Origin: Azoarcus sp. DN11
GTDB lineage: Bacteria > Pseudomonadota > Gammaproteobacteria > Burkholderiales > Rhodocyclaceae
Assembly: GCF_003628555.1 (NCBI RefSeq)
Contig: NZ_CP021731.1
Location: 2,356,001 to 2,420,000, forward strand
DNA length: 64,000 bases
Direction of reading: 5' to 3'
The translations under genes were made by a program, and so were the position numbers. The first letter of the stretch is position 1. Each line of letters begins with the position of its first letter. Shown here piece after piece: positions 714 to 16,459 of this stretch. Under the pieces are notes generated by a model. That model did no database searches, was not told the DNA's origin, and worked only from the letters and a program-made list of their open reading frames with translations.

Positions 714-1949
714 CTATGGCCGTTTGGCGATCAATACCGCGCTGGTGCCGCCGAAAGCGAAGGAATTGGACATGGTGTAGTCGAGATCGGCCACCTGCCG
801 GCCCTGGTTCGGAACGTAGTCGAGGTCGCACTCGGGGTCGGGGAGGGCGAGGTGCTGCGTGGGCGGGACGGCTTGATTGGCCAGCGCCTGCAGGCAGGCC
901 ACGAATTCGACCGCGCCGGCAGCGCCCATCAGGTGGCCGTGCATCGATTTGGTGGAACTCACAGGCAGGCGGTAGGCGCGCTCGCCGAACACTTCCTTGA
1001 TCGCCTGGGTCTCGGTGCGGTCGTTGAGGAGGGTGCCGGTGCCGTGGGCATTGATGTAGCCGATGGCGTCGGCCGGCAGTTCGGCGTCGGCCAGGGCGGC
1101 GCGCATGGCGGACGCCTGCCCGGCGACCGAGGGCTGGGTGATGTGGGTACTGTCGCTGCCGCTGCTGTAGCCGACCAACTCGCCGAGGATGCGGGCGCCG
1201 CGGGCCTTGGCCGTCTCCCACTCCTCGAGGACGACGATGGCCGCCCCTTCGCCGAGCACCAGCCCGCTGCGGTCGGCCGAGAAGGGCTTGCACGAGGCTG
1301 ACGGGTCGCTTGCGTCCTCTTTGGCCAGGGTGCGCAAGGCTTCCCAGGCGCGGATGGTGCCCAGGGTCAGGAGCGCTTCCGAGCCGCCGGCCAGCATGGT
1401 ATCGGCGTAGCCGTGGCGGATCAGGCGGTAGGCCTCGCCGATGGCGACTGCCGACGACGAGCAGGCGGTCGAATAGGTGTAATTGGGACCGGCGAGCTGG
1501 TATTCGAGCGCGATATTCGAGGCGGCCGCGCCGTTCATCGCCATGAGGACGATGAAGGGATTCAGGCGCGATACATTGTCGCGGTAAAGGCGGGCATAGG
1601 CTTCATCAAGGGAGTTCGCGCCGCCCATGCCGGTGCCCAGGGTGACGCCGGTGCGGGCGAGGTCGAGGCGGGCCGGATCGAGTCCCGCTGCGGCGACGGC
1701 CTGGCGTGCCGCCACCAGCGCGAACTGGCTGACGCGGTCGAGGCTGTTGACCTGGCGCTTGTTGAAATGGGTCTGCGGATCGAATTCGGTCTGTGCCGCG
1801 ATCCGGCACTCCAACTGGTCGGCAAACTCCGCGCGCAGGCGACCGATGCCGGACTTGCCGGCCATCAGCGCGAGGAAGAAAGCGTCGGGAGTGTTGCCGA
1901 GGGGCGAAATGACCCCCTGTCCGGTGACGGCAACGCGGCGTTTCGTCAT
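714..1949 (-). CDS. Beta-ketoacyl-ACP synthase, FabF-like (KAS II family)
   Basis: 411 aa, full family length. It carries the thiolase-fold active site: nucleophile Cys163 in TACSSS, His302 in NAHGTGT and His339 in the STKSMHGHLMGAAG block. The family performs decarboxylative Claisen condensation of acyl-ACP with malonyl-ACP. It overlaps the dedicated ACP gene by four bases (ATGA), so the two are translationally coupled. It is the last gene of a leftward operon with ACP, hydrolase, aminotransferase and phosphatase. That setting suggests a specialised acyl chain rather than housekeeping fatty-acid synthesis, because fabD, fabG and fabH are absent. The family assignment is firm; the pathway is unknown. 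Confidence 0.9.
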   Translation of the reverse strand: MTKRRVAVTGQGVISPLGNTPDAFFLALMAGKSGIGRLRAEFADQLECRIAAQTEFDPQTHFNKRQVNSLDRVSQFALVAARQAVAAAGLDPARLDLARTGVTLGTGMGGANSLDEAYARLYRDNVSRLNPFIVLMAMNGAAASNIALEYQLAGPNYTYSTACSSSAVAIGEAYRLIRHGYADTMLAGGSEALLTLGTIRAWEALRTLAKEDASDPSASCKPFSADRSGLVLGEGAAIVVLEEWETAKARGARILGELVGYSSGSDSTHITQPSVAGQASAMRAALADAELPADAIGYINAHGTGTLLNDRTETQAIKEVFGERAYRLPVSSTKSMHGHLMGAAGAVEFVACLQALANQAVPPTQHLALPDPECDLDYVPNQGRQVADLDYTMSNSFAFGGTSAVLIAKRP

Positions 1950-2191
1950 GCTTTCCCCTGGGCGCTGCGGTAGCGGTCGATCAGATTGACCAGGTCCTGA
2001 AAGTCGCTGATCTTGACATCGTCGTTCGGCACCTTGATGCCGAGGATGTCCTCGACCTTGAACACGACGTCAAAGAGGTCGAGGGAATCGATGCCAATAT
2101 CTTCCAGGGTCGCTTTGGGAGTGATCTTGCCCGGGTCGATTTCGAATTTTTCGCAGATGATCTGGGTGAGAACGTCAGCAGTGGCGGTCAT
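1946..2191 (-). CDS. Acyl carrier protein
   Basis: 81-aa acidic protein starting MTATADVLTQ, the usual ACP size. Ser36 in the GIDSLDLF motif is the expected phosphopantetheine attachment site. The frame is open further upstream, but the start at 2191 gives a standard ACP N-terminus and avoids overlap with the hydrolase gene, which ends at 2205. The stop overlaps the ketosynthase start (ATGA). It probably carries the intermediate on which the adjacent ketosynthase, and possibly the aminotransferase or hydrolase, act. Confidence 0.92.
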   Translation of the reverse strand: MTATADVLTQIICEKFEIDPGKITPKATLEDIGIDSLDLFDVVFKVEDILGIKVPNDDVKISDFQDLVNLIDRYRSAQGKA

Positions 2192-2204
2192 GGCAAATTT
2201 CCCT

Positions 2205-3047
2205 TCAGACAGGTGCCGGGGCGCAGAACGACGCGACGCGGGCCGCGATCTCGTCCTTGCGCTTGTCCAGTGTGAGTACGTGGTAGCTGTCGTCGACGAA
2301 GAAAGTCTCGACTTGTTGCGACCCGATGCGACGGGTGACGAAATGGGCGTTCTTGATGCTCGCCATGTCGTCTTCGACCGAATGGACGACCAGCGTCGGC
2401 CGTCGCACCCTCCGGAGTGACTGTTTTGCTGCCCTGACCAGGCGCTTGCTTTCGCGGATGACCGTGGCCGGGGTCTTGAAATGCCCGATCTTGTCCGCCG
2501 TGCGGGCGTCGCGGTTCTCCAGCACGGCGGCGACCATCGCCCGGACGCGCTCGTCCTTGATCCCGTAGGGAGGCGGTTCCTCCCACGAGACGAAGCGATG
2601 CAGGGGGCTATGGATGACCAGCGGCAGGAGCAGGCGCTGCCGCCACTTGGGGATATTCCAGCCGTCGTAGAAAAAAGTCGGGGAGAGCAGGGTGACGCCG
2701 GCCAGGCGCTCCTCTTTGCTGGCCGCGAGCAGCAGGCCGAGGAGGGCGCCCATGGACAGGCCGGCCACGTAGACGTGCCGGCATTCCTGGGCGAGCGCCT
2801 CGAAAGCCTCGTCAACCGAGCGGTACCAGTCTTCCCAGGTACTCGTCTTGAGGGCGTGCACCGAGTCGCAATGGCCCGCGAGCTGGGGGCAGGCGACGGT
2901 CAACCCCTTGCGCGCCAGCTGCCGTCCGAAGTGACGCATTTCGGACGGCGTGCCGGTGAGGCCGTGAATGAGCAAAACGCCGGTCTCCCCCCGTTTCTCA
3001 TAGAAGCCGTTGGGGCCGAGAATCTTCTCCATGCTGCGCTTGCTCAT
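2205..3047 (-). CDS. Alpha/beta hydrolase (carboxylesterase/thioesterase-like)
   Basis: 280 aa. The oxyanion-hole motif LLIHGLTGTP lies near residue 25, the nucleophile elbow is GLSMG, the acid is in HSVEDD and the catalytic His is in DSYHVLTLD. This is the layout of Est30-like carboxylesterases. Between ACP and the aminotransferase it could release or edit an ACP-bound acyl chain, but substrate specificity cannot be read from sequence. The start is ATG at 3047 (MSKRSMEKI), preceded by a purine-rich stretch, 23 bases after the aminotransferase stop at 3071. Confidence 0.82.
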   Translation of the reverse strand: MSKRSMEKILGPNGFYEKRGETGVLLIHGLTGTPSEMRHFGRQLARKGLTVACPQLAGHCDSVHALKTSTWEDWYRSVDEAFEALAQECRHVYVAGLSMGALLGLLLAASKEERLAGVTLLSPTFFYDGWNIPKWRQRLLLPLVIHSPLHRFVSWEEPPPYGIKDERVRAMVAAVLENRDARTADKIGHFKTPATVIRESKRLVRAAKQSLRRVRRPTLVVHSVEDDMASIKNAHFVTRRIGSQQVETFFVDDSYHVLTLDKRKDEIAARVASFCAPAPV

Positions 3048-3070
3048 GCCGCCATTCCTTCCTTTTCCCC

Positions 3071-4444
3071 TTATTGTGCGCCGCAGCGGCGGAGCAGTTG
3101 TTCAAAGAGGGCAATGCCCAGGTCGATTTCTTCGTTCGTGATCGTGAAGCTCGGCGCCAGGGTGAAGACGTTCTTGTAATAGCCGCCGACGTCCAGCACC
3201 AGACCGTAGCGCTTGCCATTGGCTTCGAGATCGCCCTTCAAGCCTTCGTTGAAAATCCGGTCGGCAAGTTCCCGGTTGGGCGTGTAGCCGTCCGCCTGGC
3301 ACATCTCCATGCGCAGGGCGAGGCCGAGGCCGCTCACATCGCCAACCATTTTCCAGCGCGCTTTCAGCTCTTCCAGGCGCTGCAGGAAATAGGCGCCCTT
3401 CTCGCGGATGCCGGGTTCCAGGTCGGCCTCCTGGGTCATGCGCAGAACCTCCAGGGCCGTCGTCGTGCCCAGCGGATTGGACGAGAAGGTGGAATGAGTG
3501 GATCCGGGCGGGAAGACCTGCGGATTGATCAATTCTTCGCGTGCCCAGATGCCCGAAATGGGGTTGAGGCCGTTGGTGATCGCCTTGCCGAAAACGAAGA
3601 CGTCGGGGACGATGCCGAAATTCTCCCACGACCAGAGCTTGCCGGTACGGTAAACGCCCATCTGGATTTCGTCGACCACCAGCAGGACATTGCGCTCCTT
3701 GAGGGTCTTGGCCAGCTTGGGGAAGTATTCGGTCGGCGGAATGACATAGCCGCCGGTGCCTTGGATGGTTTCGACGTAGAAGGCGCCGTATTCGCAGGAC
3801 TTGGCCTTGTCGTCCCAGACGGCGTTGTACTCGGTCTCGAACAGCTTCTCGAATTCCTTGTGGCAGTACATGCCGCAGCTCGCTTCCTTGAGGCCGTAGG
3901 GGCAGCGGAAGCAGTAGGGGAAGGGCACGAACTGGGCGCGGTCGGAGAAGTGGCCGTAGCGCCGGCGGTAGCGGTAGCTGGAGGTGATGGCCGACGCGCC
4001 GAGGGTGCGGCCGTGGTAGCCGCCCATGAAGGCGAACATGAGGTTCTTGCCGGTGTGGTTGCGCACCAGCTTGAGCGAGTCCTCGACCGCCTGGGCGCCG
4101 CCGACGTTGAAATGGACGCGGCCCTTGACCCCGTATTTGTCCTCGATGTACTTGCAGATGGTTTCCGCCAGCTCGACCTTCTCGGCATGCAGATACTGGC
4201 AGGCAAGCTGGGGCAGGGTGTCGATCTGGCGCTTCAGGGCCTCGTTCAGGCGGCGGTTGCGGTAGCCGAAATTGACCGCCGAGTACCACATCTGCAGATC
4301 GAGGTAGGGCGTCTGCTGCTCATCGTAGAGATAGTTGCCGTCGCAGGAGGCGAAGATCTTGGGGGGATCGGCGTAATGTACGGTGTCGCCCCAGGAACAG
4401 TAGCGGGCGTCTTTTTCGAGCAGGGAAATGGTTTTCTGGTCCAT
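3071..4444 (-). CDS. Class III (PLP-dependent) aminotransferase with a four-cysteine insert
   Basis: 457 aa from MDQKTISLLE. An upstream ATG at 4519 would overlap the phosphatase gene by more than 50 bases, so 4444 is preferred. Fold-type I class III features: the GGxxAxE-like block (VGGAQAVEDSLK), a conserved GYHGRT, Asp259 in VVDEIQMG and the Schiff-base Lys287 in FGKAITNG. Between residues 178 and 194 is an unusual C-x2-C-x8-C-x3-C cluster in CFRCPYGLKEASCGMYC, plus Cys217, which could bind zinc or an Fe-S cluster. It probably transaminates an aldehyde or ketone made by the cluster, giving an amine. Class III enzymes are functionally diverse, so no substrate is assigned. Confidence 0.85.
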   Translation of the reverse strand: MDQKTISLLEKDARYCSWGDTVHYADPPKIFASCDGNYLYDEQQTPYLDLQMWYSAVNFGYRNRRLNEALKRQIDTLPQLACQYLHAEKVELAETICKYIEDKYGVKGRVHFNVGGAQAVEDSLKLVRNHTGKNLMFAFMGGYHGRTLGASAITSSYRYRRRYGHFSDRAQFVPFPYCFRCPYGLKEASCGMYCHKEFEKLFETEYNAVWDDKAKSCEYGAFYVETIQGTGGYVIPPTEYFPKLAKTLKERNVLLVVDEIQMGVYRTGKLWSWENFGIVPDVFVFGKAITNGLNPISGIWAREELINPQVFPPGSTHSTFSSNPLGTTTALEVLRMTQEADLEPGIREKGAYFLQRLEELKARWKMVGDVSGLGLALRMEMCQADGYTPNRELADRIFNEGLKGDLEANGKRYGLVLDVGGYYKNVFTLAPSFTITNEEIDLGIALFEQLLRRCGAQ

Positions 4445-4467
4445 GACAAAGGCTTGCTTGGTTGCGG

Positions 4468-5133
4468 TTAAACGGCGGCGAACAGCTGGTTGTCGATATC
4501 CCATGCCTGGACGGCGCAAAGCACGTCGCCGAAGTGTTCGAACGGGATGTGGCTGATGTTCTCACTCTGGCAGTGCCGGATGAGTGACCCCTTGGCGAAC
4601 ACGATGTCCGCCTCGCCTGCCAGGCAGGCGTCCGACTTGCCGTCGCCGACGAGGACGATCGGCCCGCCGTGCCGCGCCGCCAGCTGTCGGGCGACGGTGC
4701 ACTTGCAGACGCCGTTGCCGCCGCGGCAGTCGGTTTGCCGGTGCGGGAAGCTCAGCTCCAGCCGGTCCGGCGAGATGAAATGCAGCTGATTGGCATAGAC
4801 CGGCAGATCCTCGTGGCCGGCGTGGCGCAAGGCGGTCTGGATGGCGAAATCGAGGCCGTCGCTGACCACCGCGAGGTGGGCGAAGCGGCGCACGTACTGC
4901 CGGAAAACGTCGAAATGCGGATCGAGGCGGATCTGGCGGAAGAACTTGCCGAGGGTGATGTGATCGCCGCGCACCAGCCGCACCTGGCTCTGCATGCATT
5001 CGAGAGCGCTGATGCGTCCGTCCACCCAGTCCGTTTCGAGCGCTTGCCAGGCAGGATCCGCGTGGTGTTCCAACAATTGATCGACGGTGTCCTCGGTAGC
5101 CAGCGTGCCGTCGAAGTCGAGTACGAAAATCAT
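4468..5133 (-). CDS. HAD-IB family phosphatase (MtnX-like)
   Basis: 221 aa from MIFVLDFDGTLAT. The start at 5133 places the HAD motif I DxDGT at residues 6-10. Motif II is VVSDG and motif III/IV is LVGDGKSDACLAG. The family hydrolyses small-molecule phosphomonoesters through an aspartyl-phosphate. A Cys-containing stretch (CRGGNGVCKC) resembles the capping region of MtnX-type phosphatases. It is 23 bases upstream of the aminotransferase start and is the first gene of the leftward operon. Substrate unknown. Confidence 0.82.
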   Translation of the reverse strand: MIFVLDFDGTLATEDTVDQLLEHHADPAWQALETDWVDGRISALECMQSQVRLVRGDHITLGKFFRQIRLDPHFDVFRQYVRRFAHLAVVSDGLDFAIQTALRHAGHEDLPVYANQLHFISPDRLELSFPHRQTDCRGGNGVCKCTVARQLAARHGGPIVLVGDGKSDACLAGEADIVFAKGSLIRHCQSENISHIPFEHFGDVLCAVQAWDIDNQLFAAV

Positions 5134-5578
5134 CTTTCTCCGTGAAGCCTGCCGCAGAAAACTCGTCATCGACGGGGCTCGGGCGGCTGAGCTGCGCAAT
5201 TTGAACGCCGCGATTGTCCATGAACGAAACTGTCGGTTTCCTGACGAGCGCGAACCGGGGCCGAGTCCCGATCTCCTCGGGTGGGGCGCCGATCCACCGA
5301 AGGCCGGTACACGGGAGCTTGTGAGCTAGCTTGCACGGGAGCGAGTGGTCCATGTTCCGGGTGAATTTCCGGAAGGAGGGGGCGATGCGGACGGGCGAGG
5401 GTGATCGACGCGCAAGCCGTCACGCCCGGCGGTATTTTCATCTACACTCTCGCCGGCGATTCGAGGAGTCGATGCGCTGCCGCCACTTCGGTTTCCACTC
5501 CAGCTTCAATTCGCGTCGCAGAACTGCGGCCTCCTCCGATTTCTTCCCGACGCCTCCCGGCTTACGACCGTCCATCCA
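5134..5578. other. Divergent intergenic region between phosphatase and DMT genes
   Basis: About 445 bases separate the leftward phosphatase operon from the rightward DMT/DegT genes, so promoters for both should lie here. No convincing sigma-70 pair or long palindrome was found by eye. A GGAAGGAGGGGGCG purine tract precedes an ATG at 5385 (see the small ORF entry). Confidence 0.4.
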
Positions 5579-5582
5579 ATGA
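5385..5582 (+). CDS. Possible leader ORF, 65 codons (doubtful)
   Basis: The ATG at 5385 follows a very strong Shine-Dalgarno-like GGAAGGAGGGGGC. The stop at 5580-5582 overlaps the start of the first DMT gene (ATGA at 5579), the geometry of translational coupling. The DMT start itself has no clear ribosome binding site. Against a real protein, the product is Arg/His-rich with no recognisable fold and low-complexity composition. It is listed only as a candidate coupling leader. Confidence 0.25.
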   Translation: MRTGEGDRRASRHARRYFHLHSRRRFEESMRCRHFGFHSSFNSRRRTAASSDFFPTPPGLRPSIQ

Positions 5583-5938
5583 ATTCCGCGCTTGTCATCT
5601 GTACTTGGTTGCTGAACATCGCCATCGACACCGGCGGCCACCTCGCCTTCAAGGCGGCAGCTCTCGAACCTGGGCACGCCACCGGGCTGGCGCGCTGGCG
5701 GCACATGCTGGCCCGTCCCTGGCTGTGGATCGGGGTCGCCTGCTTCGTGGTCGAATTCGTCGTTTGGCTGGCGTTCCTGTCGCTGATTCCGCTGGCCGAG
5801 GGCGTCCTCCTCGGCATGTTCAGCATTGTCGCGGTGATGGTCGGCGGCCGCGTCTTCTTCCACGAGCGCTTCACCCGTCTGCGGCTCGTGGGGGTGGCGC
5901 TGATCGTCGTCGGTGTCGGCATCGTGGGGTTGGCGTAA
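5579..5938 (+). CDS. Small EamA/DMT-family membrane protein, subunit 1
   Basis: 119 aa with four hydrophobic helices, the single-repeat size of small multidrug resistance/EamA half-transporters (EmrE-like, or ArnE/ArnF-like lipid flippase halves). The final helix ends VALIVVGVGIVGLA. The stop at 5936-5938 is immediately followed by the next start at 5939, and that gene encodes a second half. Such pairs usually work as heterodimers in the inner membrane. In this cluster it could export or flip the product. Confidence 0.75.
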   Translation: MNSALVICTWLLNIAIDTGGHLAFKAAALEPGHATGLARWRHMLARPWLWIGVACFVVEFVVWLAFLSLIPLAEGVLLGMFSIVAVMVGGRVFFHERFTRLRLVGVALIVVGVGIVGLA

Positions 5939-6331
5939 ATGTCCCTCAGGCGCTTCTATCTGCTCGGCTTCGTCGTCCTGATCGCCTTCGACACCCTGTC
6001 GCAAATCTGCTTCAAGATGGCCGCCATTCATGCGGCGCCCTTTGCCGTGGAGTTCGCGTGGCTGTTGCGGGTACTCGGCAATCCCTGGGTTTACGGCTCC
6101 ATCATCGGCTATGTCGGCGCTTTCGCCACCTGGATGACCCTCCTGCGGCATGCCCCCGTCGGTCCGGCGTTTGCGGCGTCGCACCTCGAAGTGATCGGGA
6201 TCATGATCATTTCGGTGCCGATGTTCGGCGAGCGCCTCGGTGCCTTGCAACTCATCGGGGCGGCGCTCATCGTGGCCGGCGTCGTGTGTCTCGCCTGCGG
6301 TGAGAGATCGGATGCCTCCGTCCACAGCTGA
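5939..6331 (+). CDS. Small EamA/DMT-family membrane protein, subunit 2
   Basis: 130 aa with four predicted helices (for example GFVVLIAFDTLSQICFKMAA and LIGAALIVAGVVCLAC). It starts directly after the stop of the previous DMT half and its end overlaps the following DegT-like gene by 20 bases, so the three are probably one operon. ArnE/ArnF-like pairs flip aminosugar-modified lipid carriers; drug or metabolite efflux is an alternative. Confidence 0.75.
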   Translation: MSLRRFYLLGFVVLIAFDTLSQICFKMAAIHAAPFAVEFAWLLRVLGNPWVYGSIIGYVGAFATWMTLLRHAPVGPAFAASHLEVIGIMIISVPMFGERLGALQLIGAALIVAGVVCLACGERSDASVHS

Positions 6332-7532
6332 CGTCCGCCTGGAAATCCCTCCCACTGCTGGACTGCCGATACGCCTGCGCGATCTTTTTCCGCCTTGGCA
6401 AGGCGATTTCCCCGAGCGCGCGGCGGCCTTTCTCGGTGTTCCCGGAGTCGGCATCGAATGTTCCGGCACCGCCTGCCTGGTTGTCATCCTCGAGACCTTG
6501 CGCCGCAGCTCCGGCCGGAGGACCGTTGTGGTCCCGGCCTATACCTGCCCCCTGGTGATCTTCGCCGTGGCCGCTTGCGGGCTGCGTCTGCGCCTGTGCG
6601 ACGTCGTCCGGGACGGCTTCGAGCTCGACCCGGAAGCCTTGGCCCGGGCCTGCGACCAGGACACCCTGGCCGTGATTCCGACTCATCTTGGCGGTCGGGT
6701 GGCGGCCATCGGGCCGGTCGCGGCGGTCGCCCGCCAGGTTGGCGCCTTCGTGGTCGAGGATGCGGCGCAGGCCTTCGGCGCAAGGCAGGACGGGCGCAGC
6801 GTCGGCCTCGCCGGCGATGCCGGCTTTTTCAGTCTCGCCGCCGGCAAGGGGTTGAGTCTCTACGAGGGCGGGATATGGGTCGCCGGCGACCCGGAACTGC
6901 GGCGCGAGATCGTCCGCGTCAGCGGCGAGATCGTGCCTGCACGCCCGCTGTTCGAGGCCTGGCGCTGCCTGCAGCTTCTCGGCCTGGCCGCGCTCTACAG
7001 GCCGCGGCTGCTGCGCTACGCCTACGGCATGCCGCTGCGCCACGCGCTCGGACGCGAGGATCCGGTGGCGGCAGCCGGCGACCTCTTTTCTTCCGATATC
7101 CCGCTGCATCGCGTCTCCGGCTGGCGCCGCTCGGTCGGCAGCCGCGCGCTCGCGCGCCTGCCAGGCTTCCAGGCGGCCCTCACGGCCCGTGCGGCCGCGC
7201 GCCTTCCCCGCCTCGCTCGCCTGCAGGGCGTCAAGGTATTCGCCGATGGCCCGGGCGGCGAGGGTACCTGGCCCGTTCTCATGCTGACCACGGCGAGCGC
7301 CGCCCAGCGCGACGCCGCGCTGCGGGAACTCTGGGGGAGCGGACGCGGGGTGGCGCGCATGTTCGCCCATGCCCTGCCCGATTACGATTACCTGCACCCC
7401 TGGCTGGAGCCGCGGTCCTGCCCGAACGCCCGCGACTTCGCCGCCCGTTCCTTCACCATTTCCAACAGCCCCTGGCTGGACGACTCCCGCTTCGAGGCCA
7501 TCGTCGCCGCGCTCGAGCGCCACACGCAATGA
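6312..7532 (+). CDS. DegT/DnrJ/EryC1-like PLP-dependent enzyme
   Basis: 406 aa from the ATG at 6312; the open frame extends upstream to 6240 but that part lies inside the DMT gene. Typical DegT features: VVVPAYTCP near residue 73, DAAQAFGA with the ring-stacking Asp at about 150, and Lys179 in the FFSLAAGKGLS block as likely Schiff-base lysine. The family transaminates or dehydrates sugar-nucleotide ketones, but divergent members act on other amines. It overlaps the second DMT gene by 20 bases. No sugar-nucleotide enzymes lie nearby, so the substrate is open. Confidence 0.75.
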   Translation: MPPSTADVRLEIPPTAGLPIRLRDLFPPWQGDFPERAAAFLGVPGVGIECSGTACLVVILETLRRSSGRRTVVVPAYTCPLVIFAVAACGLRLRLCDVVRDGFELDPEALARACDQDTLAVIPTHLGGRVAAIGPVAAVARQVGAFVVEDAAQAFGARQDGRSVGLAGDAGFFSLAAGKGLSLYEGGIWVAGDPELRREIVRVSGEIVPARPLFEAWRCLQLLGLAALYRPRLLRYAYGMPLRHALGREDPVAAAGDLFSSDIPLHRVSGWRRSVGSRALARLPGFQAALTARAAARLPRLARLQGVKVFADGPGGEGTWPVLMLTTASAAQRDAALRELWGSGRGVARMFAHALPDYDYLHPWLEPRSCPNARDFAARSFTISNSPWLDDSRFEAIVAALERHTQ

Positions 7533-7541
7533 GCGGCGGGG

Positions 7542-8441
7542 CTAGCGGCTGGCGGCGGCGATCCAGGCGAGAAGCTGGCGATTCACTTCCAGTTGCTGGG
7601 CCTGCCAGCGGGCCAGCGCTTCTTCCGCCACGGCGGGTTGATCGTCGAGGGCGCTGAGCCAGCGTTTCCAGCCGGTCCGGTAGTGGTGGATGGAAATCTC
7701 CCCCGTGATGTCGCTTCCCACCAGGCGGCCCGTCAGGGACGCGATCACCCGCGCGATGTCGTCGAGACCGAGGCGGCCCTGGTCCCAGTTGGTTCGCGCC
7801 ACCTCCGGCGCGAGCACGTCCTTGTCGATGGACAGGTAGACCGGGGTATCGCTGCCCGCCAGCCGGCAAACGAAGGCGTCGATCAGGTCTGCGACTGCGG
7901 AGAAGGCGTGGAAGCCTTTGCCCAGCCCCAGACGGCTCGCCCAGGCGGTATCGACGCCCAGCGTCCAGTAATGCACCTGCCCGCGGAAGATCGGCGACAG
8001 GTAATTTTCCCAGGCATGGCGCCAGCCCACGTCCGGCGAGCAGATCCCGAGGACGTGGATGGTCCCGACCTGCGGCAGGCTCGCCGCATGCCGCACCCAC
8101 GAGCCGCAATGGATGCCGAACGGAAAGCGCATATTGTCGGGGTGGTTGTCGAACACCACGACGTCGAATTTCTCGCTGCCGTCGAGGCGTTTGAGCAGCA
8201 GGTGGCTGAGGTGATGGTAATCGCCGCTGCCCATGAGCACCGTGCCGTACCGGCTTGGCATGCATTCCCGCAGAAAGGCCTCGAGGCGGCGCCATGCGGG
8301 CAGGCCGCAGCCGAAGCGGATCGCCTCCTGCCAGTTCGCCAGCGGGACGACCTGCGCCCCTTCCAGGCCGCGCAACGAACCGTCGAAATCAAGAACGAGC
8401 GGGGGAGGCGTGGGTATGGGCGTCGAACCAGGCGCGATCAT
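7542..8441 (-). CDS. Arginase/ureohydrolase-fold protein (UPF0489-like)
   Basis: 299 aa. The ureohydrolase metal-ligand motifs can be traced in order: MGSGDYHHLS (in place of GGDHS) near residue 72, DNHPDN (D98, H100, D102), LSIDKDVL (D206, D208) and SDITGE near 245. All four blocks keep the acidic/His ligands, so a binuclear metal site is plausible. Overall similarity to true arginases looks low, so arginine is not assumed; a guanidino or amide C-N bond is a reasonable guess. The 5' end overlaps the following FemAB-like gene by 53 bases. Confidence 0.65.
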   Translation of the reverse strand: MIAPGSTPIPTPPPLVLDFDGSLRGLEGAQVVPLANWQEAIRFGCGLPAWRRLEAFLRECMPSRYGTVLMGSGDYHHLSHLLLKRLDGSEKFDVVVFDNHPDNMRFPFGIHCGSWVRHAASLPQVGTIHVLGICSPDVGWRHAWENYLSPIFRGQVHYWTLGVDTAWASRLGLGKGFHAFSAVADLIDAFVCRLAGSDTPVYLSIDKDVLAPEVARTNWDQGRLGLDDIARVIASLTGRLVGSDITGEISIHHYRTGWKRWLSALDDQPAVAEEALARWQAQQLEVNRQLLAWIAAASR

Positions 8442-9459
8442 GCTCGAAGCGTCGGGAAATCTTTTTCAGGCAAACGCGTAGCAAGGGATTGCGGACGTAG
8501 ACCGCATGCCGCGTGAAGGTGAACAGGGCTCCCAGGTAGGCCTTGATTTCGGGATCGGTCCACCCCGCTACGTAGTGGCTCAGACCGTGGGCGCGGGCGA
8601 ATTCGAGATTCTCCATCCAGCTCACGAAATAGAGATTGTGCTCACGTGAAGCGGGGTAGCTGAAGCCCACGTACTTGTCGATGAGCATGCCGCCGTGCGT
8701 GAAGCAGAGGTTGAAGCCGATCAGGGCGTCCTGGCTGTAATAGAGAAAGAGGTGGCCGGGAAGCGATCCATCCTGCAGGATGGCACGGAGGAATTCCCGG
8801 GTCAGCTTGTCGAAGCGGATTTTGCTCTGGGCGTACACTTCCTCGTAGAGGGCGTAGAGCGCATCGAGGAATCGAGGATCCTGAAAACGCTCGTCGCCGG
8901 TCGGCAGGATCTCCACCTGGAGCCGATCCCGAGCCCGCAGCTTGCGCCGGATATCCTTGCGCCGCCCCGACGACAGCCGGGACAGGTACTCGTCCTGGCT
9001 GGAAAAATCGATATTCACATAGGCGAGCGCTTGCCCTTCCAGCATGACGAACCCCGCATCCTCGCAGGCGGCGACGAAAGCGGCGGAATATTCCCGCTCC
9101 GCCTCCGGGAGCAGTGGGGAATGCTCGGGCAGGTCCTTGACGATCAAGAGCGCAGAACGTTCGGCCCAGGATTCGAGCATCGCTTTGGTGAGCGCCACCG
9201 GCGCGATGCCGCGCGGCATCGGCGCATATTCGCTGGAGGTGGTCCCGAAAAAGCAGGTGCGCCAGGTCAGGAGACGGCGCAGCCAGCGGCTGCCCGGCAG
9301 CGAATTGGCCAGGCGCAGGGTCTCGGCATCGGCAGTGGTGAACAGGTCGAACGGAGCGAAGAACCCGGGCGCTCCCTCGCGGGAAACAAAGGGGACGAAT
9401 CCCTCGGGAGGGTGCGCGAGAAAGTGCGCAACCAGTCCGGCCGGCTCCAATGCGTTCAT
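8389..9459 (-). CDS. FemAB/GNAT-fold acyl- or aminoacyltransferase-like protein
   Basis: 356 aa from MNALEPAGLV at 9459; an open frame extends to 9660 but has no homology-like character. The C-terminal half (SRLSSGRRKDIRRKLR, then FLYYSQDALIGFNLCF and HNLYFVSWMENLEFARAHGLSHYVAG) follows the pattern of FemAB-type GNAT proteins, known in databases as peptidogalycan-biosynthesis-like. Such enzymes transfer aminoacyl or acyl groups to an amine. It is the outer end of the unassigned cluster and overlaps the arginase-fold gene, suggesting coupled expression. Confidence 0.7.
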   Translation of the reverse strand: MNALEPAGLVAHFLAHPPEGFVPFVSREGAPGFFAPFDLFTTADAETLRLANSLPGSRWLRRLLTWRTCFFGTTSSEYAPMPRGIAPVALTKAMLESWAERSALLIVKDLPEHSPLLPEAEREYSAAFVAACEDAGFVMLEGQALAYVNIDFSSQDEYLSRLSSGRRKDIRRKLRARDRLQVEILPTGDERFQDPRFLDALYALYEEVYAQSKIRFDKLTREFLRAILQDGSLPGHLFLYYSQDALIGFNLCFTHGGMLIDKYVGFSYPASREHNLYFVSWMENLEFARAHGLSHYVAGWTDPEIKAYLGALFTFTRHAVYVRNPLLRVCLKKISRRFEHDRAWFDAHTHASPARS

Positions 9460-9796: not shown

Positions 9797-10612
9797 ATGA
9801 AAATGTCTCGCCTCCTCGCGCTTTCGCCCGTCCTCCTTGCCTTGAGCGTCAGTACCGGTGCGGGGGCGGCCGAGCAGGAGCAGCCGCCCGGCGGGTCCGA
9901 CACGCAGGCAAAACCCCTGACCGTGGCCCTGGGGGCCGGCGCCGAGCGCCTGCCGAGCTGGCTGGGAGCGGCGGACAGCAAGACCCGGGGCGTGCCGTAC
10001 ATCAATATCAATTGGCAGGAGCGGGTCGAATTCTCCACGGTCGATGGCCTGGTCATCGATCTCGTGCACCAGGACCGCTGGCACGGCGGCCTGGTCGGGA
10101 CCATGTTGTGGGGGCGCAGCCGCAGCGACCTCGGCACGCTCGCCGACCGCGGCGTTCCCACGCTCAACAACACCCTGCAGGCCGGCACTTATCTCGAATA
10201 CGACGTCACCAAAGCGTTGAGCGTGGGTGTGCGCCTGCGCCACGATATCCAGGGCACCGGCGCGGCTTATGGCGACATCTATGCCAGTCTCGATCTGCCG
10301 GCGGTAGGCTACGTCGAGCACAGCCTGCGGGTTGCGGGCGAGGCGATGAACCGCACCGCCATGCGCCGCTTTTTCGGCGTCTCGTCCGAAGCCGCGGCGA
10401 GCCTGGGCACCCCGGGGTATCGGCCCGACGGTGGCCTCAGCCAGGTCTCGGTAACCTACGATGCCTTCATCCCCACCAGTCAGTCGACCGGTGTCGCCTT
10501 TGCCGCGAGTTATGGCAGATTGGCGCATAACGCCGCCGACAGCCCGCTGGTGCAGGATTTCGGCAGATCCAGCCAGCGCAGCCTGATGGCGGCTTTCGTG
10601 TACCACTTCTGA
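9797..10612 (+). CDS. MipA/OmpV family outer-membrane protein
   Basis: 271 aa with a Sec signal peptide (MKMSRLLALSPVLLALSVSTGAGA, cleavage near AGA-AEQ). The mature part alternates beta-strands and ends FVYHF, the C-terminal aromatic signature of outer-membrane barrels. MipA/OmpV proteins scaffold murein enzymes or act in envelope and osmotic stress, and their genes often sit beside a two-component system, as here. The response regulator starts 20 bases downstream, so the three genes are probably co-transcribed. Confidence 0.8.
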   Translation: MKMSRLLALSPVLLALSVSTGAGAAEQEQPPGGSDTQAKPLTVALGAGAERLPSWLGAADSKTRGVPYININWQERVEFSTVDGLVIDLVHQDRWHGGLVGTMLWGRSRSDLGTLADRGVPTLNNTLQAGTYLEYDVTKALSVGVRLRHDIQGTGAAYGDIYASLDLPAVGYVEHSLRVAGEAMNRTAMRRFFGVSSEAAASLGTPGYRPDGGLSQVSVTYDAFIPTSQSTGVAFAASYGRLAHNAADSPLVQDFGRSSQRSLMAAFVYHF

Positions 10613-10631
10613 GTTTCAGCAAGGGGCCGAA

Positions 10632-11306
10632 ATGCGTGTTCTCCTGGTGGAAGACGACCTCCTGGTGGCCGCGGGCATCCGCGAGGGGCTGGAAAAGGCC
10701 GGCTTCGCCGTCGATCACCTGGCTGCCGCCGAGCCTGCAGAATCGGCGCTCGGTTTCACCCATTACGATCTCGCCATCATCGACATCGGCCTGCCGCGCA
10801 TGGACGGTCACGAACTCATCCGCCGCCTGCGCCGGCGCGGCGTCCAGCTGCCGGTCCTGATTCTGACCGCCCGGGACGGCCTCGACGACCGGGTCGTCGG
10901 CCTCGACCTCGGTGCCGACGACTACATGGTGAAACCCTTCCTCCTGCCGGAGTTGCTCGCCCGGATGCGGGCGCTGATCCGCCGCAGCCGTTCGGCAGTC
11001 TCGTCGGAACTGAGTGCCGGCCAGGTCAGCCTCGACCTCGCCCGGCGCGTCGCGACCGCCAACGGGGCACCGCTCGAACTGACCGGGCGTGAATGGGAAA
11101 TCCTGCAGCAATTGATGCTCGCCAGCCCGAACGTCGTCGTCAAGCAGAAACTCGTGGAAAGTTTGAGCGAGTGGGACAAGGAACTGACCGCCAATGCCGT
11201 GGAAATCTACGTTTCCCGGCTGCGCGCCAAACTGCAGGGCTGTGGTGTCGAAATCCGCACCTTGCGCGGCATTGGGTACCGGCTAGATGAAACCGGGACG
11301 GCCTGA
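10632..11306 (+). CDS. OmpR-family response regulator
   Basis: 224 aa. Receiver domain 1-115 with acidic pocket VEDD, phospho-acceptor Asp51 in IIDIGLPRMDG and conserved Lys in MVKPFLLPEL. The C-terminal winged helix has the LTGREWEILQQL and AVEIYVSRLRAKL signatures. Most like the QseB/TctD/PmrA branch. Its 3' end overlaps the kinase gene by 20 bases. Its likely targets include the mipA promoter just upstream. Confidence 0.92.
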   Translation: MRVLLVEDDLLVAAGIREGLEKAGFAVDHLAAAEPAESALGFTHYDLAIIDIGLPRMDGHELIRRLRRRGVQLPVLILTARDGLDDRVVGLDLGADDYMVKPFLLPELLARMRALIRRSRSAVSSELSAGQVSLDLARRVATANGAPLELTGREWEILQQLMLASPNVVVKQKLVESLSEWDKELTANAVEIYVSRLRAKLQGCGVEIRTLRGIGYRLDETGTA

Positions 11307-12705
11307 ACGCCACCGGCGGACGCTGCGCCAGCGGCTGCTCCTGTTCCTGCTGCTGCCCATGGCAGGTCTGCTGGTGATCAGCCTGACGACGGATTATCAA
11401 TTCGCCTTCAATCCCGCGCAGGAAGCCTACGATCATGCCCTGATCGACGATGTTCTCGCCCTGGCGGCGCGGGTCCGCTCATCCGGGCCGACACTCGAGG
11501 TCGACCTGCCGGCGGCGGCCGACGCGGTTCTGCGCAGTGATACCACCGACGAGGGATTCCTCGCAGTGTATGGCCCGGACGGGCAACTGCTGGCGGGCGA
11601 TGCCGATCTCAAGCCGGATGCGCTCTCGGCCAGCCTGGTCCCGCTCTTTACCAATGCCAGGCTACGCGGCCACCGCATCCGCAAGGTCTCCTACCGTTTG
11701 GAAACGGAGCGGGGGGTGGTGACGGTGGTGGTGGCCGAGACGACCCGCAAGCGCGAGCGCGCCGGGTCGAAAATTCTCGCGGCGATGATTCTTCCCAATG
11801 TCCTGATGATTGTCGCCACGCTGGCTCTGGTTTATTTCGGCATCCGCACCGGCCTTGCGCCCCTGAATCACCTCAGCGAGGAAATCGGCCTGCGTTCGCC
11901 GCGCGACCTGAGCCCTCTGCCCAAGGGCGACGCCCCCGGCGAGGCGGTCCCCCTGCTCAATGCCATAGACGCCCTGATCAAGGATCTGCGGGCGGCGGCC
12001 ATTGCCCAGCAGGCTTTCCTCGCCAATGCTGCCCACCAGCTCAAGACCCCGATCGCCGGGCTGCAGATCCAGCTCGAACTGACGGCCGAAGAACTGCCGC
12101 GGGAATATCGCAACCGCATTTCCCACCTGCGCGATGCCACCCAGCGCCTGGGCCACCTCGCGCATCAGTTGCTGGCCCTGGCCCGCTCGGGCTCCGAAGC
12201 CGACGTGGTGCACGAACGCCGGCCTGTCGACCTGGCCGTGCTGTTGCAGTCCTGCGCATCGAACTGGTTCGACGCCGCGCTGGCGAAGGACATCGACCTC
12301 GGTTTCGAGCCGGAGGCGGCGGTGATCGAGGGCTCCGAATGGCTGCTTCGGGAACTGCTCAGTAATCTTATCGACAATGCCCTTGGCTACACCCCGCAGG
12401 GAGGCGTGGTCACCGTCCGCTGCGGCGTCGGCGACGAGCACCGGCCTTACATCGAGGTCGAGGATACCGGGCCGGGAATTCCGGAATCCGAGCGCGGGCG
12501 CATCTTCGACCGGTTCTATCGCGCCGAAGGGACCCCGGGCACCGGTACCGGGCTGGGGCTGGCCATCGTCAAGGAAGTGGCCGACCGGCATAACGCCGAT
12601 ATCGAACTGACCGACGCGACTTCCGAGGGGGGCACCCGCATCCGCGTCAGTTTCCCGCCGCTCCGGCCGCTCGCCGAAGTCCCGCTGCCACAGGCCGATG
12701 CGTAG
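11287..12705 (+). CDS. Sensor histidine kinase (TctE/QseC-like)
   Basis: 472 aa. TM1 is at about residues 15-35 (LLLFLLLPMAGLLVISL), then a periplasmic TctE-like sensor region of ~130 residues, TM2 at about 165-185 (ILAAMILPNVLMIVATLALV), and a HisKA domain with His250 in NAAHQLKTPI. The HATPase domain shows LSNLIDNALGYT, DTGPGIP and GTGLGLAIV. The cognate regulator overlaps it upstream. The ligand is not predictable. Confidence 0.9.
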   Translation: MKPGRPERHRRTLRQRLLLFLLLPMAGLLVISLTTDYQFAFNPAQEAYDHALIDDVLALAARVRSSGPTLEVDLPAAADAVLRSDTTDEGFLAVYGPDGQLLAGDADLKPDALSASLVPLFTNARLRGHRIRKVSYRLETERGVVTVVVAETTRKRERAGSKILAAMILPNVLMIVATLALVYFGIRTGLAPLNHLSEEIGLRSPRDLSPLPKGDAPGEAVPLLNAIDALIKDLRAAAIAQQAFLANAAHQLKTPIAGLQIQLELTAEELPREYRNRISHLRDATQRLGHLAHQLLALARSGSEADVVHERRPVDLAVLLQSCASNWFDAALAKDIDLGFEPEAAVIEGSEWLLRELLSNLIDNALGYTPQGGVVTVRCGVGDEHRPYIEVEDTGPGIPESERGRIFDRFYRAEGTPGTGTGLGLAIVKEVADRHNADIELTDATSEGGTRIRVSFPPLRPLAEVPLPQADA

Positions 12706-12925
12706 GCAGCCATCCGCCCCTTCCGTCCTGCGCGTGTTGACGGAAGAAGTGTTTGCCGGGGGGCGATCCCGGGCGACGTGACGGCTCACGATGGTGATTT
12801 CCAAAAAAGGTCCAGAAGAGGGGGAGTGGACGTCTTTCACGCACGGTCTATAACGTGGCAGTGCAAGTGGCCGGGCGTGAACAACCTCCAAGGTGGTCGA
12901 TACAGATCGGATTCAGGGGGAGTCG

Positions 12926-15900
12926 ATGACAAGTGAGCGTGTTGCCCCTGGGATATCGCTGCGTGCAGCCCTGCTGCGGCTGGTTCTGGCTTCGCTCATG
13001 CCGCTCGTGCTGGTGGGGGCGGGCTTCCTGTGGCTGCAGTGGAACACGTATCGCACCGTGGCCGTCGAGGGGCTGCGTGAGCGCGTGCAGACGCTGGCGC
13101 TGGCGGTGGAGCGCGAGCTCGGCATGAATCTGGCAATCCTCGATACGCTCGCCGCGCTGCCGGAGATCGATAGGCGCGACTGGACCGGGTTCCACGAGAT
13201 CGCCGCTGCCGCGATGTCGCCGCACGCGCTCGGCTGGGTCGTGCTGGTCGAGCCATCCGGGCAGATGGTGGTCAATACGCAGGCTCCCGTCGGCGCCCCT
13301 CTGCCCAATCTGCTGCAGATGTATGCGAAAAGGCAGGAGATCGAATGGGAGGGGCGGCACCTGCCTTCGTTCGACACGCGCATCCTGGAGCCGCTGCGCT
13401 CGGGACACGCCAGTGTCACGAGCCTGTTCTACGGTCCGGTGACCCGGCGGCCCGTGCTGAGTGCGAGCGTGCCGGTGCTGCGCAACGGCGAGCCACGCTA
13501 CTCGCTTAACATGGGTTTCACGCCCGACGCGCTGGCCGCGCTGGTGGGCAGCCAGGGCGGTTCGAGCTCCGCAAACGCTGCGGTGGTCGATGCCAACGGG
13601 CGGATCATCGCGCGCAGTGCGGATCAGGCTCAATACCTGGGCGCCCGGGCTGCGGCTCCTTTCGATCGGGTCGTTGCGCTGGGGCGCGAAGGCGTCGGTG
13701 AAACTACCGACCTCGAAGGCGTGCCCATCGTATACGCGTATCGGCGTGTGGCGTCGGCCGACTGGGTGATCGTGATCGCGATTCCCCGCCACGAACTCCT
13801 CGCGCCGGTCTTGCACATGTTCGTTCCGTGGCTGATCGCGGCGGTGCTGCTTCTCGGCGCAGCGGCCTACCTCGCGCACCGGCTGCAACGACGCATGGCG
13901 CTGCCGCTCACCGCACTGGCCGCCTCGGCAGGGGCGCTTCAGCGGGGTATCGCGCCCGACATCCCGGACACCCGCATCCGGGAGCTCGACACCCTGAGCC
14001 GTGCACTGCGCCTGGCGGCGCAGCGGGAGCGGGAGGTCCGCGAGGAACTCGAACTGCGGGTACAGCAACGCACCGCCAGCCTCGAGGAGGAGTCGCGACG
14101 GCTGGAACAGACCGCCGCCGCCTTGAGGGTGAATGAGGGGCAGATGGAGGCGTTGCTCGAAAATACGCCCGCCATCATCTTCATGAAGGATCTCGAAGGG
14201 CGTTACCTGCTCGTGAACCGGTATTTCGAGCGGGTCTTCAATCTGCGCGGCGAGGGTATCGTCGGCAAGACCTGCGCCGAGCTCTTTCCGCCGGACGTTG
14301 CCGAAAGGCTGCGCGAAGACGACCGCCACGTGCTCGAGGCCGGCGCACCGGTGGAAGTCGAGGAAGTCCTCCAGCAGGAAGGCGAGCCGCGCAGCTACCT
14401 GGCGATGAAGTTTCCCGTCCGGGACGCCGACGGACGCATATACGCCTTGTGCGGCATCGCCACCGACATCACCGAGCGCAGGCGGACCCGGCTCGAACTG
14501 ATGCGGACGCTCACCGTGCTGCAGGCGATCCTCGACAGCGCGAGCTACGCGATCATCTCCACCGACACGCAGGGTACGATCCTGACCGTCAACCACGCGG
14601 CCGAACGCATGCTGGGGTATTCGGCCGCGGAACTCGTGGGCCGGGCGACACCGCAGATCTTCCATGACGCGGAGGAAATGGCGCAACGCGCGGCGGCGCT
14701 CTCGCGCGAACTGGGCAAACCGGTGGCTGCAGGCTTCGAGGTCTTCACGGTGAGACCGCAGCGCGACCAGCTCGACGAGGACGAATGGACCTACGTGCGC
14801 AAGGACGGCGTGCGCGTTCCGGTACGGCTTTCCATCACTGCGCTGCGGGATGCGCAAGGTGAGATTACCGGCTACCTTGGCATCGCCTCGGACATTACCG
14901 AGCGCAAGCGGGCGCAGCAGGCAATGCTCGAGCACGAGCGCCGCTTTCGTGCCATCTTCGACCAGACGTTCCAGTTCACCGGGTTGCTCACCCCGGACGG
15001 CACCGTGCTCGAAGCCAATCAGACAGCGCTCGACTTTGTCGGCGCCGAGCGTATCGACGTGGTCGGTCGCCCTTTCTGGGAGACGCGGTGGTGGCGCATT
15101 TCGCAGGAAGTGCGGGATCGACTGCGGCTGGCCATCGCTGAGGCCGCGCAAGGCAAGTTCGTGCGCTACGAGATCGACGCCTTCGGTGCGAACAACACCA
15201 TCCGCACCCTGGATTTCTCGCTCAAGCCGGTGTACGACGAGCATGGTGAAGTCGTGCTGCTCATTCCGGAAGGGCGCGACATCACCGAGCGCAAGCGCGC
15301 GGAGGAAGAGGCGCATGCGGCGCGCGCCCGGTTCGCCGGCATCCTCGAGATCGCCGCCGATGCCATCGTCTCCATCGACGAGACGCAGCGCATCACCTTG
15401 TTCAACAAGGGGGCGGAGCAGATCTTCGGCTACCGCGCAGACGAAGTCCTGGGCCAGCCCCTCGACATCCTGCTTCCCGAGCGGCTGCGGGCAGTGCACC
15501 GGGAACACGTCGCCGCGTTCGGCCGGTCCGAAGACGTCACGCGGAAAATGAACGCGCGGGGGTCGGTCTCCGGGCGTCACAAGGACGGCACCGAGTTTCC
15601 GGCCGAGGCATCGATCTCCAAGCTCCGATTGACGGGCGAAACGGTCTTTACCGCGACCTTGCGCGACATCACCGAGCGCAAGCAGGCCGAGGCCGCCATC
15701 GAGCACCTCAACCGCGCCTTGGAGCGGCGCGCGGCCGAACTCGAAGAGGTTAACCGCGAGCTGGAGTCTTTCTCCTATTCGGTGTCTCACGACCTGCGCG
15801 CGCCGCTGCGCAGCATCGATGGCTTCAGCCAGGTGTTGCTGGAAGACTATTCGGATCGCCTGGACGAAGAGGGGCGCGACTCGCTGCGGCGCGTGCGCGC

Positions 15901-16459
15901 TGCCAGCCAGCGCATGGCGCAGCTGATCGACGACATCCTCACGCTGTCGCGCTTGTCGCGCGCGGAGATGCGGCGCGAGCGGGTCGATGTGTCGGCCATG
16001 GCGCGCGCGGTTGCCGACGAACTGCGCGAGGCCGATCCGCTGCGCGAGGTGGAATTCGTCATCGCGGACGGCGTCGCCGCGGCGGCCGATCCACGCCTGT
16101 TGCGTGTCGTGCTGGAGAACCTGTTGGGCAATGCGTGGAAGTACACCGCGCATCATCGGCGCGCGCGGATCGAGTTCGGCACCGAACGGCGCGACGACGG
16201 TGCCATCGCGTACTTCGTGCGCGACGACGGTGCCGGATTCGACATGGCGTACGCCGGCAAACTGTTCGGGGCATTCCAGCGATTGCACACGGCGGCCGAA
16301 TTTCCGGGCACCGGCGTGGGTCTCAGCAGTGTGCAACGCATTGTTCACCGTCATGGCGGCAAGGTGTGGGCGGAAGCTGCGGTGGAAGCGGGGGCAACGT
16401 TCCGCTTTACGCTCCCCGATGATGCCGCGATCGAGTGGCAAGGCCACGAGCATCCATAG
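12926..16459 (+). CDS. Multi-PAS hybrid-type membrane histidine kinase
   Basis: 1177 aa from the ATG at 12926, chosen because GGGGGAG precedes it; an upstream ATG at 12893 lacks a site. TM1 at about 10-33 and TM2 at about 300-320 flank a ~260-residue extracytoplasmic sensor region (dCache-like). Then come a charged coiled linker and four PAS/PAC units (about 400-520, 525-660, 665-790, 795-920), each closing with an (D)ITERK-type motif. HisKA has His955 in [10 protein letters not shown] and HATPase has [11 protein letters not shown]. The kinase core resembles the phytochrome-like family that signals through Rcp1-type receivers, and such a receiver gene follows after 12 bases. No DNA-binding output is present. 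Confidence 0.9.

Follow-up and report, generated by a model that had tools for sequence, protein, structure and literature searches.

A sporadic gene cluster of Azoarcus sp. DN11 and other proteobacteria as a candidate envelope amino-lipid pathway

The window analysed here, a stretch of 64,000 nucleotides of Azoarcus sp. DN11 (positions 2356001-2420000 of a 4.96 Mb genome in a single contig), contains a complete set of ten genes that combines a FabF-type ketosynthase (KS), an acyl carrier protein (ACP), an alpha/beta hydrolase (ABH), a class III pyridoxal phosphate (PLP)-dependent aminotransferase (AT3), a HAD phosphatase, two small EamA membrane proteins, a DegT-type aminotransferase, a diverged enzyme of ureohydrolase fold (ARG) and a predicted FemAB-like aminoacyltransferase (FEM) (Table 1). 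All genes named in a preliminary description of this DNA are present in the orientations given there, and its remark that modular synthases are missing holds, since KS and ACP stand alone and no modular type I polyketide synthase or nonribosomal peptide synthetase was found among the ten genes. The span it proposed (1946..9459) leaves KS (714-1949) outside, and its list, correct for the ten genes, missed a MipA/OmpV outer-membrane protein and a two-component system (9797-12705), consisting of a response regulator (RR) and a sensor kinase (HK), which usually belong to the cluster. Catalytic residues are intact in KS (C163, H302, K334 and H339, kept in at least 97% of 40 sequences), in the ABH triad (Ser98/Asp226-227/His256, conserved across 70 sequences), in DegT (Lys179, kept in at least 97% of 57 sequences) and in the HAD motifs DFDGT, SD, K and GDGxSD (24 sequences compared). 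The Ser within the DSL motif of ACP is conserved, and the reading frames of FEM and ARG overlap by 53 bp.

Table 1. Features of the cluster and its regulatory neighbours, in window coordinates
Feature	Position	Strand	Basis and remarks
FabF-type ketosynthase (KS)	714-1949	-	Pfam ketoacyl-synt and NCBIfam FabF family; optional member
Acyl carrier protein (ACP)	1946-2191	-	PF00550; paired with KS; optional member
Alpha/beta hydrolase (ABH)	2205-3047	-	PF12146; monoacylglycerol-lipase-like
Class III PLP aminotransferase (AT3)	3071-4444	-	PF00202; most conserved core enzyme
HAD-IB phosphatase, MtnX/phosphoserine-phosphatase-like	4468-5133	-	TIGR01488 above cut-off; PF06888, PF12710
Spacer separating the divergent HAD and EamA operons	5134-5578	.	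Direct reading and gene ends
EamA/DMT small membrane protein 1, ArnE-like	5579-5938	+	PF00892 above cut-off
EamA/DMT small membrane protein 2	5939-6331	+	PF00892 above cut-off
DegT/DnrJ-type PLP aminotransferase	6312-7532	+	PF01041; variable member
ARG, diverged ureohydrolase (arginase)-fold enzyme	7542-8441	-	
FEM, FemAB-like double-GNAT aminoacyltransferase (predicted)	8389-9459	-	Pfam PF04339, PF13480
MipA/OmpV outer-membrane protein	9797-10612	+	PF06629; divergent from FEM
OmpR-family response regulator (RR), PmrA/QseB-like	10632-11306	+	Best NCBIfam model PmrA, 224 bits
Sensor kinase (HK), 2CSK_N domain, QseC/PmrB-like	11287-12705	+	PF08521

The cohesion of this set was assessed in loci fetched by scanning genome contigs with ARG alone, the best 80 of 91 relatives being kept (20 of the 80 are shorter than 20 kb owing to contig ends) and genes being counted with profiles built from these same loci, at score cut-offs chosen by the analyst. 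FEM is present in all 80, and the other eight genes in 39-72 (the two EamA genes in 72 each, ABH in 70, DegT in 56, AT3 in 52, HAD in 48, KS and ACP in 39 each), which bears out the earlier proposal of one functional unit; the full ten-gene set occurs in 10 of the 60 loci of at least 20 kb as well as in the window. In a sample of 250 genomes of the window's order, AT3 was found in 13 and FEM, with a wider profile, in 14, both being present in 12 (Fisher p 1.2e-17, the relatedness of genomes making such p-values overstate independence). The strongest hits of ARG (E <1e-100) and FEM (E <1e-150) fall in the same nine genomes, and at 1e-10 the ten genomes with ARG all lie within the 18 with FEM. 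Profiles A1 and A2 contain no sequence from the sampled genomes apart from locus L083, whose contig is that of sampled genome G236; profile A3 includes sequences from sampled genomes G103, G116, G023 and G114, and profile A6 from G107, G222 and G116, which favours those hits. A chance neighbourhood as an explanation of the gene set is ruled out by this co-occurrence. The preliminary description had named rare co-occurrence in related genomes as evidence against a unit: few relatives have the cluster, but a genome with one core gene nearly always has the rest. The trait is not one of Rhodocyclales: AT3, ARG and FEM were found in none of seven other genomes of the same family in the order sample and the cluster recurs across proteobacterial classes and on plasmids.

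The conserved deep core consists of HAD, AT3, ABH and FEM, and ACP-KS is optional. Thus, the acyl carrier protein and ketosynthase, which had been taken as the heart of the cluster, are present in just the 39 loci counted above, and were not found in the fetched loci of Gilliamella, Snodgrassella, Acinetobacter, Wohlfahrtiimonas or rhizobia. AT3 itself is 60-93% identical to 25 homologues, and a survey of 398 genomes of the phylum found it in 25. Neighbourhoods were available for 24 of these 25 genomes (20 fetched anew, the window and three others already fetched; G519 offered a short locus only). Among the 20 fetched anew, which include a 4 kb contig (L140) and a locus showing AT3 alone (L145), HAD accompanies AT3 in 19 loci and ABH does so in 18; ARG, FEM and EamA are found in many, frequently as distant relatives, and ACP-KS is variable. 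A wider check of 33 genomes, selected for having AT3, ARG or FEM, found FEM in 30 and ARG in 21. All 21 ARG genomes have FEM and nine FEM genomes are without ARG, so that ARG goes with FEM and not vice versa; FEM is present in 29 of 32 AT3 genomes and was not found in G252, G278 and G390. The streamlined 1.3 Mb genome G222 keeps the order HAD-AT3-EamA-ABH-ACP-KS-EamA with a divergent two-component pair (L151:7046-12272), its FEM lying at a separate place (L090:8213-10497), two genes from a PlsC-type acyltransferase. The best PDB sequence matches of ABH are a lipase and monoacylglycerol lipases (~1e-30), and HAD is nearest to MtnX and phosphoserine phosphatases, PDB matches included, with a profile that also reaches, weakly, a glycerol-3-phosphate dehydrogenase chain (E 7.8e-7). 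Assignment of ABH as an exosortase-associated hydrolase was rejected (25.8 of 202.75 bits).

The cluster is a sporadic yet cohesive, mobile unit, an occurrence as expected for a horizontally moving pathway. It recurs in alpha-, beta- and gammaproteobacteria, and plasmids carry it too: relatives of AT3 lie in 34 plasmid records, and among the matches listed (20 of the 34, five loci being examined in detail) these come chiefly from Rhizobium, Agrobacterium and Bartonella, with one from Xanthomonas sacchari. It is thus a recurring cluster of soil, plant and bee-gut bacteria, apparently undescribed as a unit, as a literature search for the cluster as such found no description.

In the FEM tree Snodgrassella lies inside Orbaceae (99/95 and 99/94), and in the AT3 tree Snodgrassella (loci L055-L057, L061, L066, L067 and L071) groups with Gilliamella and its kin against Frischella and Orbus (100/99). 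When Orbaceae, a group defined after the FEM tree was seen and before the AT3 tree, are forced together, the FEM sequences do not reject the constraint (p 0.086) but those of AT3 do (p 0.00012). The nesting in the AT3 tree suggests transfer between core bee-gut symbionts. A Snodgrassella genome study lists 25 specific genes common to all Snodgrassella, which the relevant section does not connect with one another (PMC9239279). Compared by length and annotation, and not by sequence, seven of the 25 in that list match the cluster by length and six by annotation too (SpeB 296, ArgD 471, MtnX 248, EmrE 118 and 135, esterase 273); the seventh, a 359-aa protein of unknown function, is as long as FEM of L055 (FEM elsewhere measuring 362), and DegT was not found by length in the list (PMC9239279).

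The genes beside FEM suggest a link of the cluster to the envelope. In the 80 loci, profiles built from members in those same loci placed MipA no more than 3 kb from the cluster in 27, RR in 26, HK in 26 and any of the three in 36; every MipA-bearing locus (27 of 27) has a MipA in this range. In the Agrobacterium larrymoorei order, RR-HK-HAD-AT3-ARG-EamA-ABH-FEM-EamA-MipA, regulators and MipA flank the cluster. Among 14 MipA-bearing genomes, MipA lies near AT3 or ARG in eight, as read from listed positions (four of the eight being of one genus), and in a ninth, G437, it lies 4.6 kb from FEM. The HK and RR families are widespread, and a few linked pairs may arise by chance. By its NCBIfam scores, all below cut-off (PmrA 224 of 330 and QseB 211 of 345 bits for RR; QseC 173 of 475 and PmrB 156 of 314 bits for HK), the two-component pair of the window is a relative rather than a member of PmrAB/QseBC. 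MipA of P. aeruginosa binds polymyxin and, in the part of the report cited, is proposed as a helper in ParS activation (PMC10936184). Directly after the pair in the window (12893-16459) stands a sensor kinase of 1188 residues and several domains, which by eye looks PAS-type.

Lipid genes have entered several versions of the cluster. Loci L028:10878-11927, L042:10880-11899 (Stenotrophomonas) and L083:5377-6333 (a betaproteobacterium) carry a gene for a fatty acid hydroxylase (PF04116) within it, and in L010:5231-6307 such a gene stands 2.6 kb away, giving four of the 80 loci, in different lineages; the gene of L042 was matched by our own profile and the other three by Pfam, and the hydroxylase is found additionally in L099. 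On a plasmid of Rhizobium sp. CIAT894 (L148), the order RR-HK-HAD-AT3-ARG-EamA-desaturase-ABH-FEM-EamA-cyclopropane-fatty-acyl-phospholipid synthase includes two inserts, a domain-confirmed fatty acid desaturase (11676-12548) and the cyclopropane-fatty-acyl-phospholipid synthase (14904-16241). Recurrent neighbour families, delimited roughly by Louvain clustering, were annotated in part. Several of them are genus-bound (15-18 Dyella except for one locus, 20-24 Orbaceae), and family 32 arises artefactually from the opposite strand of ARG. The hydroxylase just described and the ABC/HlyD/TolC neighbours treated below cross genera. Phosphate-transport genes upstream of KS, assigned by reading, were left out of the unit, their recurrence across loci not being followed.

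The predicted fold of FEM (356 aa) matches the double-GNAT aminoacyl-tRNA transferase fold over model residues 1-342. All but one of its 23 best VIA-align rows are aminoacyl-tRNA-dependent transferases or so named, the exception being the unknown protein 2hqy at rank 22; the first row below these 23 is a tandem GNAT (14.2). Scores reach 18.4 for Sba18/Sbb17, 17.5 for FemX, 17.3 for MprF/L-PGS and 15.8 for A-PGS. From this modelled fold, FEM would be expected to transfer an amino acid from aminoacyl-tRNA. The nearest folds, the streptothricin peptide synthases Sba18/Sbb17, also point to another product: AT3, FEM and ARG could make a secreted small molecule, such as a tRNA-dependent peptide or amino metabolite of streptothricin type that may carry an acyl group. 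Its release would fall to the EamA pair, joined in some lineages by a tripartite ABC exporter, and MipA and the two-component system would respond to it. The biosynthetic character of ACP-KS and the sporadic, sometimes plasmid-borne occurrence of the cluster are in line with this. Its main new support comes from recurrent tripartite exporter genes: a MacB/FtsX-type ABC permease lies within ~2 kb of the cluster in nine of the 80 loci, from several genera (L012, L016, L018, L020, L024, L029, L040, L052 and L088), HlyD-type genes stand beside it in seven and TolC-type genes in nine, and the plasmid loci L150 (permease, HlyD and TolC-type genes) and L149 (permease and HlyD) repeat the arrangement. 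Nevertheless, most of the 80 loci are without an ABC exporter, several versions carry inserted lipid-modifying genes, the core includes a monoacylglycerol-lipase-like hydrolase, and the streamlined 1.3 Mb genome retains the cluster, so that a secreted product is unlikely. Some exporter-bearing loci also have a spermidine-synthase-domain protein within ~3 kb of the cluster (L088:12864-13652, L020, L024, L029 and L040, four of the five being close relatives).

Ureohydrolases share the binuclear metal-binding motifs GxDHS-like, DxHxD and SxDxD. These are present in ARG, in which D74, H76, H77, D98, H100, D102, D206 and D208 are invariant in sets of 26 and 16 sequences and the first two motifs align with plant arginase by hmmsearch. 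Arginases also have a guanidinium-binding Glu after the last strand. The ARG position aligned with it is an invariant Gly, the PDB alignment ending just before this residue; the residue after the Gly is acidic in 26 of 26 sequences of profile A1 and Ala in L089. The ureohydrolase fold could suggest that the cluster serves the utilisation of arginine, a polyamine or another amino acid, with ARG as an agmatinase-like enzyme, AT3 as an omega-aminotransferase and the EamA proteins as exporters. Such an assignment would suit AT3, whose nearest PDB entries are gamma-aminobutyrate and acetylornithine aminotransferases and amino acid racemases, and several similar-looking genes are classed as amino acid metabolism in the section cited from the bee-symbiont paper. 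Yet it leaves FEM, which was seen with every ARG, as well as ABH, HAD and ACP-KS unexplained, accounts neither for the fatty acid hydroxylase, desaturase and cyclopropane-fatty-acyl-phospholipid synthase nor for MipA, and meets an ARG from which the aligned guanidinium-binding Glu is absent. A utilisation cluster is therefore very unlikely.

An amino-lipid is the best supported reading of the product, in agreement with the preliminary description, which suggested a route to an amino-lipid or small metabolite whose product is exported or flipped. Specifically, we tentatively favour, at somewhat less than even probability, a regulated envelope-lipid pathway that resembles MprF but is split into separate parts; the fold of FEM, the tie of ARG to FEM, the co-occurrence of AT3 with FEM, the lipid-gene links and the linkage to MipA and the two-component system all lead to this preference. 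In such a pathway HAD and AT3 would supply a glycerol-type head group, or a lipid, that bears an amine; they might convert dihydroxyacetone phosphate to serinol phosphate and then serinol, or carry out the same steps after acylation of the intermediate. Where ACP-KS occurs it would provide a dedicated acyl chain, and ABH would remove or exchange an acyl group. FEM could then move an amino acid from aminoacyl-tRNA onto the amine, and ARG could hydrolyse part of the added residue (in the simplest case turning Arg into Orn) or of the acceptor. DegT would add an optional further amination, the EamA pair may flip the product to the periplasm, and MipA with the PmrA/QseB-like system would sense envelope stress, probably cationic peptides, and control the pathway.

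Several points weigh against the amino-lipid pathway. Regarding FEM, the Foldseek TM-scores of the top rows are only ~0.46-0.56 of the query, neither a PDB sequence match nor a match to a characterised aminoacyltransferase was found, and acyl-CoA or acyl-ACP donors are possible, GNAT folds being versatile. The Gly at the position aligned with the arginase Glu weakens a plain Arg-to-Orn reaction of ARG, which may not take guanidines. The HAD and AT3 steps draw on family resemblance, and genome G107 carries a reduced FEM-EamA-EamA-ARG set (L089:8222-11045), AT3 not being found in this genome, so that the head-group genes are dispensable for FEM-ARG. As to regulation, neither MipA nor the two-component pair was found within 3 kb in 44 of the 80 loci, and a PmrA-box-like repeat, searched for in the window by its consensus, gave no match against ~5 expected. 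The exporter neighbours fit peptide efflux and equally product export. Finally, MprF is commoner in cluster genomes (11 of 33) than in others (3 of 33), the two sets differing in taxonomy, which means that cluster genomes do not lack MprF. The reduced set of G107 adjoins squalene-hopene-cyclase-like and MlaA/VacJ-like genes, named by reading their sequences, and is possibly a related modification of another lipid.

Carried to its most specific form, the proposal would describe a new membrane-lipid class: a serinol-type amino-glycerol lipid, aminoacylated from tRNA, reshaped by a dedicated ureohydrolase (e.g., arginyl to ornithyl), and flipped by an EamA pair. Antimicrobial peptides would induce it via MipA and a PmrA-like system, and horizontal transfer would have spread it among insect-gut symbionts. 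We regard this full version as quite doubtful. If the envelope-lipid pathway exists, many alpha-, beta- and gammaproteobacteria hold an overlooked stress-responsive pathway that alters their membranes, the carriers including core symbionts of the bee gut as well as root-nodule bacteria, in which it lies on plasmids. Scattered or 'unknown' genus-specific genes of Snodgrassella would then be explained as a single unit, and the FEM and ARG clades, both lacking an assigned function, would gain testable roles.

Among known systems, the cluster bears a likeness to the pathway that decorates lipid A with 4-amino-4-deoxy-L-arabinose (Arn), both combining an aminotransferase of the DegT family with two EamA proteins and, close by, a PmrA-like regulator. 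An Arn-like decoration of a surface glycan or lipid A can accordingly be envisaged, in which DegT would form an amino sugar, the EamA proteins would flip an undecaprenyl-linked intermediate and FEM would add an amino acid. DegT is indeed close to aminotransferases acting on sugars, such as ArnB and 2-deoxy-scyllo-inosose aminotransferase, and the EamA proteins give weak hits to the NCBIfam equivalogs ArnE (30.8 of 92 bits, EamA protein 1) and ArnF (26.1 of 99 bits). Both scores are far below cut-off, however, and DegT is optional, not being found in 24 of the 80 loci (some truncated) nor in the rhizobial versions examined; a glycosyltransferase is absent among the ten cluster genes of the window and was not seen among the recurrent neighbour families, as far as these were annotated. 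An Arn-like role is thus distinctly unlikely.

Another parallel is the serinol phosphate route of the Campylobacter capsule, in which, according to the section cited, Cj1437 transaminates dihydroxyacetone phosphate and Cj1435 is a HAD phosphatase (PMC11800397). As in the step proposed for AT3 and HAD, a PLP transaminase and a HAD phosphatase act there on a three-carbon phosphate, an analogy of reactions drawn without sequence comparison; the Campylobacter route differs in belonging to capsule genes, none of which is in the cluster. The domain PF13444, which we take to be the OlsB-type acyltransferase domain of ornithine-lipid synthesis, is not among the Pfam hits of the ten cluster proteins. 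Aryl polyene clusters encode many modifying enzymes. The window cluster is without these and was rejected as a member of that class; Frischella, as reported in the part cited, has a separate, named aryl polyene cluster (PMC10104596).

A close functional counterpart of the proposed amino-lipid pathway is MprF/LpiA, from which the cluster differs in several respects. FEM is stand-alone, with no MprF membrane (fused flippase) domain among its Pfam hits, and PF09924 (LPG_synthase_C) gave no Pfam match in FEM and none in the window's own genome. We know of no MprF system with AT3, HAD or ARG, and many cluster genomes carry MprF too. AcvB, the Agrobacterium hydrolase paired with MprF/LpiA, is described as periplasmic in the section cited (PMC13197417), whereas the relatives of ABH are monoacylglycerol lipases. 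FemX and Sba18/Sbb17 share only 12-17% identity with FEM in fold alignments, and streptothricin or peptidoglycan genes were not noticed in the cluster. ARG, in turn, is 18% identical in its comparison with agmatinases, arginases and other ureohydrolases, and it differs by the invariant Gly aligned with the arginase Glu, by the clade-wide extra motifs HCGSWV and TNWDQG, and by being tied to FEM.

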